DNA of 39,459 nucleotides from Candidatus Aenigmatarchaeota archaeon. GTDB taxonomy: Archaea; Aenigmatarchaeota; Aenigmatarchaeia; CG10238-14; SCSR01. The notes under the pieces were generated by a model. The model ran no database searches and had not been told where the DNA came from. It was given only the letters and a program-made list of their open reading frames with translations. Where the stretch lies: NCBI GenBank assembly GCA_014238095.1, contig JABABT010000025.1:1-39459 (forward strand). Direction: 5' to 3'. Shown in pieces: positions 2,744 through 5,485 of this stretch (within the stretch, counting starts at the first letter, position 1; each line of letters begins with the position of its first letter). Both the position numbers and the translations under genes were made by a program.

Positions 2744-3370
2744 ATGAGAATTTTAGAAGATAAAATAAATTATAATAATATTAAATATTTTAAATTAATT
2801 AATGAAAATCAAAATTATATTCAAAATAAATTATATAAAAATTTGAATGAATATAAAAACAATTATAACTATGTAATAAATGAAATAGGAAAATATTATA
2901 TTAAAAATAATGAAAAAGAAAAACTTGAAACTATTGGATATAAAATTTACTCAATTTCAGAAAAAATTGAAAATGGAATAAAAGAATATTTAAAAATTGG
3001 TGAAGAATTAAATTATAAAAATCCTATTTATAATGAAAATGGAATAAAAGAAGATGAATATACATCACAATTAAAAAAAAATATAAGAAAAATTGAAAAA
3101 CTTGAACATAAATTAAATGAAGAAAAGATGAAGATGAAAAAAGATAGTGAAAGATTAAATAATCTTATTAAATCTGTTGATGAAATTTTTTATAATGTTA
3201 AAAATAATAAAACAATAACAAAAAATAAAGAAAAAATTGGAATTAATTTTAATTCATTTAATGAAGAAAAAATTGATATAAATGAAAAGAAAAATAATCA
3301 TAAAAATATATTAAGTATATTATTTGGATTTATTATAATAATAATATTTTATTCTTTTATATTTAACTAA
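2744..3370 (+). CDS. Coiled-coil protein with C-terminal transmembrane anchor, 208 aa
   Basis: K/E-rich helical central part; C-terminal ILSILFGFIIIIIFYSFIFN hydrophobic segment at the very end. Confidence 0.65.
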   Translation: MRILEDKINYNNIKYFKLINENQNYIQNKLYKNLNEYKNNYNYVINEIGKYYIKNNEKEKLETIGYKIYSISEKIENGIKEYLKIGEELNYKNPIYNENGIKEDEYTSQLKKNIRKIEKLEHKLNEEKMKMKKDSERLNNLIKSVDEIFYNVKNNKTITKNKEKIGINFNSFNEEKIDINEKKNNHKNILSILFGFIIIIIFYSFIFN

Positions 3371-3884
3371 CTTTAAATTCTATTTTAGTTTTAGGAGATA
3401 TTTTCAAACTTAATTTTTTTAAGGCTTTTTTTGCAATTTTAATATTTTCTTTATTCACTTGAACTCTAATCAATTTCTGACCAACTTTTGCTTGTATAGC
3501 TGTCCCTGTTGGTTTTCCAAAAGCATGAGCCATACCTTGTGAATAACGATCTGCTCCTGCACCTGTTGCAATTGGTTTTTCACGAATTACATGATGTGGA
3601 TAAGCAAGAATCTTCATAAAGAAACCTTCAGCAGTTAAATTATCTTCCAAAAATCTTGTAGCAACAATTCTTCCTGCTTCAACAGAATTATCACGAATTT
3701 GAACAGCTTCTTTTGAAATTAAATAAAATGTAGAATCAAATTTACCTTTTTTATTACCCATTTCAAATTGATGTGTTTTTGGAAAAGGAACTCCTTTTAC
3801 ATAAGATATTTTAGGTCTATGATGACTAACTCTAGTCCAAGGTCTTTCTATTTTTCTTACAACACGTCCTGGTCTTAAACCCAT
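3363..3884 (-). CDS. rpl10e: 50S ribosomal protein L10e (uL16 family)
   Basis: MGLRPGRVVRKIERPWTRVS, FPKTHQFEMGN, GADRYSQGMAHAFGKPTGTA. Confidence 0.95.
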   Translation of the reverse strand: MGLRPGRVVRKIERPWTRVSHHRPKISYVKGVPFPKTHQFEMGNKKGKFDSTFYLISKEAVQIRDNSVEAGRIVATRFLEDNLTAEGFFMKILAYPHHVIREKPIATGAGADRYSQGMAHAFGKPTGTAIQAKVGQKLIRVQVNKENIKIAKKALKKLSLKISPKTKIEFKVS

Positions 3885-4008
3885 AAAATCACTTTATAAA
3901 TTTTGTTTTTATTTGAATTTAAAGTTAATGTAATTTGTCTATAAAGTAAAGAAAATAATTATTTTATGGATAAATTAATTTTATGGGAAAATATACTAAT
4001 TATAAACC

Positions 4009-4016
4009 TTTAAATA
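4009..4016 (+). promoter_or_regulatory. Putative TATA box (TTTAAATA) of the small histone-like gene, with SD AGGAGTGA at 4038-4045
   Basis: AACCTTTAAATAGG context; same motif appears upstream of ORFs 6339 and 22840. Confidence 0.5.
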
Positions 4017-4051
4017 GGAAAATTGTTTATTATTTTTAGGAGTGATTTTAA

Positions 4052-4216
4052 ATGGCATTGTTTGTTAAATCGGCTATACGTTCTCAATTAAAAAATATGA
4101 GAGTAAGCCAAGAATTCTTCAAAGCTCTTGATAAAAATATTTCAGATAATCTAATAGCAGCAGTAGAAAGAGCTAAAAGTAATGGAAGAAAAACCTGTAG
4201 AGGATGTGACTTATAA
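4052..4216 (+). CDS. Small histone-fold-like protein, 54 aa (MALFVKSAIRSQLKNMRVSQEFFKALDKNISDNLIAAVERAKSNGRKTCRGCDL)
   Basis: Manual translation; AVERAKSNGRKT..DL resembles the helix2-loop of archaeal histone / DUF1931-type proteins; own SD, TATA box and terminator; absent from the ORF track (short). Confidence 0.8.
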   Translation: MALFVKSAIRSQLKNMRVSQEFFKALDKNISDNLIAAVERAKSNGRKTCRGCDL

Positions 4217-4221
4217 GTCAT

Positions 4222-4248
4222 AAGCCTCTTTCAGGCTTTTTATTTTTT
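4222..4248 (+). terminator. Intrinsic-terminator-like hairpin AAGCCT-ctttc-AGGCTT plus T-rich tract
   Basis: Perfect 6-bp stem followed by TTTTATTTTTT, just after the stop of ORF 4052-4216. Confidence 0.7.
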
Positions 4249-4270
4249 ATAAATTAGAAAAATATTATAT

Positions 4271-5485
4271 TTAATTATTCATTCCAGTAATTCTATTAAT
4301 AAATTTTCTTTTCTCTTGTTTTTCTTTTAATTCTTTTCTTCTTTGAATTTTAGAAATTTTTCTAATTAAAGGTTCAATTTTAATTGCTTCTTTCTTTGAA
4401 TTTCCTATTCCTGTACAATTTCCAACACCAATTATAATTATAGATCCCTTTTGTTTAGTATTTTTTATATTATCTTCAACAATTTCTAATACTCTAGGAA
4501 CTGTATTTAAAATTTCTTCACGCATTGGCATTATAGCTTCCTCATTACTCATTTTTACAACAATAGTATCAAGTGGTATATTTTTTACAGTTGAAATTCT
4601 TTCTATATGCTCTCTTTCAACACCTATACCACCAATAGCAACACCAACACCTTCAGCAATACTTCCAGTTTTTTCACCTTCAAATTTAGCAGATGCGTCA
4701 ATTGTTATTATTTTTGATATTTTATTTTTATTAAACAATTCTTGAACAGCAAATCCTAATTTTCCTAATCTACCACCTGGTCCTTTAGCACGTAAAATGA
4801 AAACATTTTTTCCTTTTATTTTCTTCTTAGCAAATAAAGTTTCATCATCTGCTATTTCTTTAGTTTTAGCATCTCCAATCAAATAAGATGCTATATGTGG
4901 TCCTATAGAATCTCCAACTGGCCAACCATTTGAAAATGCTTCTGTACCTTTTAACATAGCTTTAGAAATTTTCATAATTAATGGTAATTGCATTTGAAGA
5001 AGCATTGCAATTTGCAAATTTTTAGTTTTCTTAACAATTTCAACATAATGTCTTACAATTTTCATAATTTGATTTAATGATATTGCACCAGCAAGAGTCA
5101 TATTCATATTTGCTTTTTCTTCAGAACTTAATTTTGGAGCAACATTTTCAACAAAATATTTGAATCTTCTTTCACTTAGATTTGTTAAATGTTCTATTTT
5201 TTTCATAACTCCATAAGGATCCATACTTACTGGATTTATAACAAAAAAATTCATAAAATTCGAAATAGATTTTTTAATCTTTGAATTTGTACCATTTCCA
5301 GTTTTCTTTAAAGCAATATATTCTCCGGTTTTTGAAAATTGTTGTAATTGTTTTACTGTACGATCTAAATTAACAATTACTTGCATTAACATAAGTCTTG
5401 GATAAACAAAAATGAAAAGGAAAAATAATAGGAAAAAGAATATTTGAGATAAAAAATCTGTTCCTGTTCCAATTCCAAATACCAT
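4271..5485 (-). CDS. DUF1512-like archaeal membrane-anchored protein
   Basis: N-terminal TM segment; motifs IDASAKFEGEKTGSIAEGVGVAIGGIGVER and GVGNCTGIGNSKKEA recalled from the DUF1512 family. Confidence 0.75.
   Translation of the reverse strand: MVFGIGTGTDFLSQIFFFLLFFLFIFVYPRLMLMQVIVNLDRTVKQLQQFSKTGEYIALKKTGNGTNSKIKKSISNFMNFFVINPVSMDPYGVMKKIEHLTNLSERRFKYFVENVAPKLSSEEKANMNMTLAGAISLNQIMKIVRHYVEIVKKTKNLQIAMLLQMQLPLIMKISKAMLKGTEAFSNGWPVGDSIGPHIASYLIGDAKTKEIADDETLFAKKKIKGKNVFILRAKGPGGRLGKLGFAVQELFNKNKISKIITIDASAKFEGEKTGSIAEGVGVAIGGIGVEREHIERISTVKNIPLDTIVVKMSNEEAIMPMREEILNTVPRVLEIVEDNIKNTKQKGSIIIIGVGNCTGIGNSKKEAIKIEPLIRKISKIQRRKELKEKQEKRKFINRITGMNN

Follow-up and report, generated by a model that had tools for sequence, protein, structure and literature searches.

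A likely face-to-face (FtF) type, alpha3-truncated histone with a labile cysteine pair in a small-genome DPANN archaeon

The window analysed here, the whole stretch of 39,459 nucleotides of contig JABABT010000025.1, belongs to a genome of 516 kb in 39 contigs that is 93% complete. The host is a small-genome DPANN archaeon, Aenigmatarchaeota-like, and the closest named homologues of the histone described below include Candidatus Aenigmatarchaeota MAGs. This histone of 54 residues is encoded between a divergent and a convergent neighbour, with the following features:

3363..3884, minus strand: ribosomal protein L10e (PF00252), divergent neighbour
4001..4016, plus strand: TATA-box-like TATAAACCTTTAAATA, a possible promoter element, read directly from the sequence and weak as evidence
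4038..4045, plus strand: Shine-Dalgarno-like AGGAGTGA, 6 nt 5' of the ATG, read directly from the sequence
4052..4216, plus strand: gene of the alpha3-truncated FtF-type histone, 54 aa, ATG at 4052 and stop at 4214-4216, translation MALFVKSAIRSQLKNMRVSQEFFKALDKNISDNLIAAVERAKSNGRKTCRGCDL followed by the stop
4187..4210, plus strand: RxTxxxxD L2-loop motif, codons 46-53, R-K-T-C-R-G-C-D, with C49 and C52 at non-motif positions (motif definition from PMC11390915)
4222..4238, plus strand: terminator-like hairpin of 6 pairs with a loop of 5, AAGCCTCTTTCAGGCTT, followed by the T run TTTATTTTTT
4271..5485, minus strand: DUF1512 protein (PF07431, PF23542), convergent neighbour

As the earlier note on this DNA had pointed out, the gene is missing from the open reading frame track; the frame is present, and its absence would be explained by a length of 54 aa, below the default cut-off of 60 aa. 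A single-sequence search detected homologues, with frames open throughout, in the genomes of 43 of 57 relatives, and a profile search did so in 94 of the 156 genomes of the class. Differences from the homologue at locus L006 number 17, 8 and 31 at codon positions 1, 2 and 3, and the nearest homologues in general differ mostly at third positions, with dN of about 0.26-0.43 and dS saturated or above 1. The gene is under purifying selection, and the open frames of the homologues together with the third-position bias argue that it is coding beyond chance. As for the clear TATA box, Shine-Dalgarno site and terminator that had been claimed, the second and third hold up as a Shine-Dalgarno-like site and a terminator-like hairpin (one such site in the histone region versus 0.1 expected from shuffles), but the first is uninformative, for the TATA-like strings at 4001-4006 and 4009-4014 mean little in DNA of 23% GC. 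Nothing in the analysis bears out the strong expression that these signals had been said to imply.

The L10e gene adjoins a histone homologue in about ten related loci too, as does the DUF1512 gene (tblastn synteny). In most of the related loci examined within the same taxonomic order, the homologue has one or both of these genes no more than 1.5 kb away. This conserved neighbourhood suggests vertical descent of the histone gene. The placement of an FtF histone beside L10e and/or DUF1512, which recurs in many related genomes (3363-5485 in the window; loci L006-L026), has to our knowledge not been described before. On the far side of L10e, and convergent with it, the window encodes at 2744-3370 a coiled-coil-like protein of 208 aa whose C-terminal tail is hydrophobic; we found no Pfam match for it and no similar gene beside the histones of relatives. 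Elsewhere in the same genome there are two PF00808 histones of nucleosomal type (G000:C36:22405-22587 and G000:C37:74684-74869), so that this genome probably has several chromatin proteins, the FtF histone among them. In one genome of the same family, a partial copy inside a long contig (L116 / L040, G014:C22:11197-11289) holds histone residues 1-31 only before the frame diverges, and reflects either a disrupted gene or a join made during assembly.

Searched as a single sequence, the protein matched no Pfam or NCBIfam model. Its best match in the PDB is 9F2C (phmmer, E 1e-4), the solved FtF histone HTkC (TK1040) of Thermococcus kodakarensis, which the histone profile finds at E 2.3e-16. A monomer AlphaFold2 model built on an alignment of 22 homologues (mean pLDDT 94.2) has alpha1 at about 6-12, alpha2 at 20-43 and a one-turn alpha3 at 51-53, the chain ending at 54. 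Foldseek again places 9F2C first (TMq 0.92, rmsd 1.1 Å), with E-values that are modest (best 1.7e-3) because the chain is short, followed by HBb (Bd0055, from the bacterium Bdellovibrio bacteriovorus) and HLp, the bacterial FtF histone of Leptospira perolatii (PDB 9QT0/9QT1/9QT2; TMq 0.91). All three are alpha3-truncated histones. Both the histone fold and the kinship to alpha3-truncated families proposed earlier are borne out. HTkC, the closest known protein by sequence and structure and of the same length class, shares the histone fold with one-turn alpha3, the GRKT motif and the equivalent of R40. However, identity in the structural alignment is only about 33%, HTkC has Leu for C49 and Glu for N44, and its L1 is longer by a few residues.

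FtF histones have an alpha3 of only 3-4 residues, and the model shows this together with a shortened alpha2. Essentially all homologues end as the 54-aa protein does, the close ones at D-L/V/I. The earlier reading, that the protein stops short where alpha3 should begin, does not stand: the family ends at D-L (PMC11390915), and the invariant FtF motif residues and the alike endings of the homologues make of this "truncation" the normal end of the family. Membership of the HMf-type nucleosomal class was rejected, given that the full alpha3 of about 10 residues is absent and that TMq against HMfA/HMfB is about 0.5. The proposed match to DUF1931 also falls away. These proteins belong to the same histone-fold superfamily but form a different group, of pseudodimers (PMC12701072) with two folds per chain; here there is a single fold in 54 aa, and the corresponding model, PF09123, gives a weak match in 7 of 22 relatives and none for the window histone.

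The assignment is strengthened by the residues that do not vary. We tallied 88 non-redundant homologues, counting from the C-terminus because of indels in L1, and R40, N44, R46, T48 and D53 are invariant in all of them. These are the counterparts of R41, N45, R47, T49 and D54, the FtF-defining residues of D4GZE0 from H. volcanii, and RxTxxxxD is the motif of FtF histones in L2/alpha3 (PMC11390915). The Arg and Asn of FtF tetramerisation are thus both present in 88/88 homologues as R40 and N44, although N44 is not decisive, HTkC itself having Glu at that position. Similarly, R40, S43, N44, R46 and D53 correspond to R49, S52, N53, R55 and D62 of HLp, which serve its tetramer and clamp; its tetramer interface includes R49, S52, N53, R55 and T61 (PMC12701072). 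All homologues carry a basic residue at position 10, either Lys or Arg (Arg here), which would be the likely counterpart of K11 on alpha1 of D4GZE0, the conserved DNA-binding lysine of FtF histones. We consider, with a probability of about 0.92, that the protein is an ordinary archaeal FtF, alpha3-truncated histone whose dimers, judging from its relatives, would assemble into a ring-shaped tetramer that wraps DNA.

The feature that had been singled out as unusual is the terminal C-R-G-C, said to replace the usual residues and to suggest metal or redox linkage. In fact the cysteines replace no conserved site but fill two of the four "x" positions between the T and the D of RxTxxxxD. Position 49 is Leu, Val or Ile in 82 of the 88 homologues (35, 34 and 13, respectively) and Cys in 6, while position 52 holds R (22), G (17), Y (13), C (12), A (9) and others including S and H. 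Both cysteines occur together in four homologues, C49 alone in two, C52 alone in eight, and neither in 74. The four with the pair all belong to the window's own GTDB family, and a DNA pattern search for N-x-R-x-T-C-x-x-C-D across the class found it in the same four of 156 genomes; a conserved CxxC is ruled out by these two surveys. Even close relatives essentially do not conserve the cysteines: CR[GA]C is carried by three (L006, L008, L014), whereas the same family also has members with one cysteine (L009, L012, L013, L015) or neither (L010, L011, L016, L017, L022, L023). By parsimony, C49 must have changed about 4 times and C52 about 9 times, a labile pattern that suggests tolerated positions. 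A different arrangement is seen in FtF homologues of another family of the class, f7 (L084, L086, L090, L092, L095, L096, L099, L105, L106 and others), which commonly carry CxxxxC at the L1/alpha2 start, for example MNCGGDFCEALDK, and do so more consistently than the CxxC occurs here.

Could the pair nevertheless serve, in this family-level clade, as a metal site or a disulphide, stapling the tetramer together or putting DNA wrapping under redox or metal control? By alignment, C49 and C52 correspond to V58 and T61 of HLp. The former makes an L1-L2 contact inside the dimer and the latter belongs to the dimer-dimer hydrogen-bond network (PMC12701072), so C52 sits at an interesting place. The pair in 4/88 homologues also stands against a low cysteine background of about 1.4% of residues, with a naive Fisher p of 0.003 for association over all 88 rows, and CR[GA]C is repeated in three relatives. 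However, within the clade the association is not significant (p 0.077), and tree-based independent pairs offer too few contrasts to support coupling. Position 49 normally accommodates a hydrophobic residue, for which Cys is a mild substitution; the identity of the residue at position 52 is unconstrained, and C52 alone is the commonest cysteine-bearing state. Cysteines that come and go among relatives, with the pair confined to 4 of 156 genomes, make a poor case for a switch driven by metal or redox state, and the idea largely fails. We regard such a site as quite improbable, and the fuller version, in which one DPANN clade gained C49 and C52 near the dimer-dimer interface to bind metal or form a disulphide, lock the ring and couple wrapping to metal or redox state, as a shade less probable still. 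Our literature search on cysteine or zinc in archaeal histones returned nothing relevant. A 2026 survey (PMC13260811) reports an under-representation of cysteine in archaeal histones. The copper reductase of eukaryotic H3, with its C110, was set aside as an analogy, since that cysteine belongs to the end of alpha2 and not to L2/alpha3.

A second alternative, which we find less likely again, is that the protein stays a dimer and bends DNA as HBb does, instead of closing into an FtF ring. HBb is indeed among the closest folds (TMq 0.86-0.89), shares the alpha3-truncated fold and matches the profile at 1e-9. Yet it has Ser and Asp at the positions of R40 and N44, the tetramer residues kept by every homologue, and HTkC is the better match both by sequence and by fold. 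Lastly, the missing long alpha3 helix might suggest that the gene is a pseudogene-like remnant of a degraded HMf-type histone. This idea is refuted by a C-terminus that is conserved throughout the family, is disfavoured by purifying selection and by the two separate PF00808 histones of the genome, and can be dismissed.

Returning to the ordinary FtF histone, a mechanism can be proposed by analogy with its relatives. Two chains would form a head-to-tail histone-fold dimer, and two such dimers, joined to each other at either end, would make a ring-shaped tetramer held by the end of alpha2 (R40, S43, N44), R46 and the C-terminal residues. DNA would follow the rim of the ring, in contact with the alpha1 face and with the L1/L2 beta-bridges (T48), and would be wrapped non-specifically over about 60 bp, as reported for HLp (PMC12701072); wrapping of 50-60 bp has been proposed for the H. 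volcanii FtF histone (PMC11390915). HLp differs in being bacterial, in having an N-terminal tail and in having Val58 and Thr61 where the window histone has C49 and C52. C49 takes the place of the usual Leu/Val/Ile beside T48, and the position of C52, just ahead of the clamp aspartate, tolerates many different residues. The most likely function is that of a general chromatin protein, a tetramer that would wrap roughly 50-60 bp.

Had the cysteine pair bound metal, it would have been a rare redox or metal switch in a histone, and its distribution argues against this. The window histone is another member of the known FtF family. It adds a clear FtF histone, beside two nucleosomal-type histones, to a DPANN genome of roughly 0.5 Mb, and it does so through a 54-aa gene that is easily lost to length cut-offs, yet occurs in the majority of the genomes of the class.
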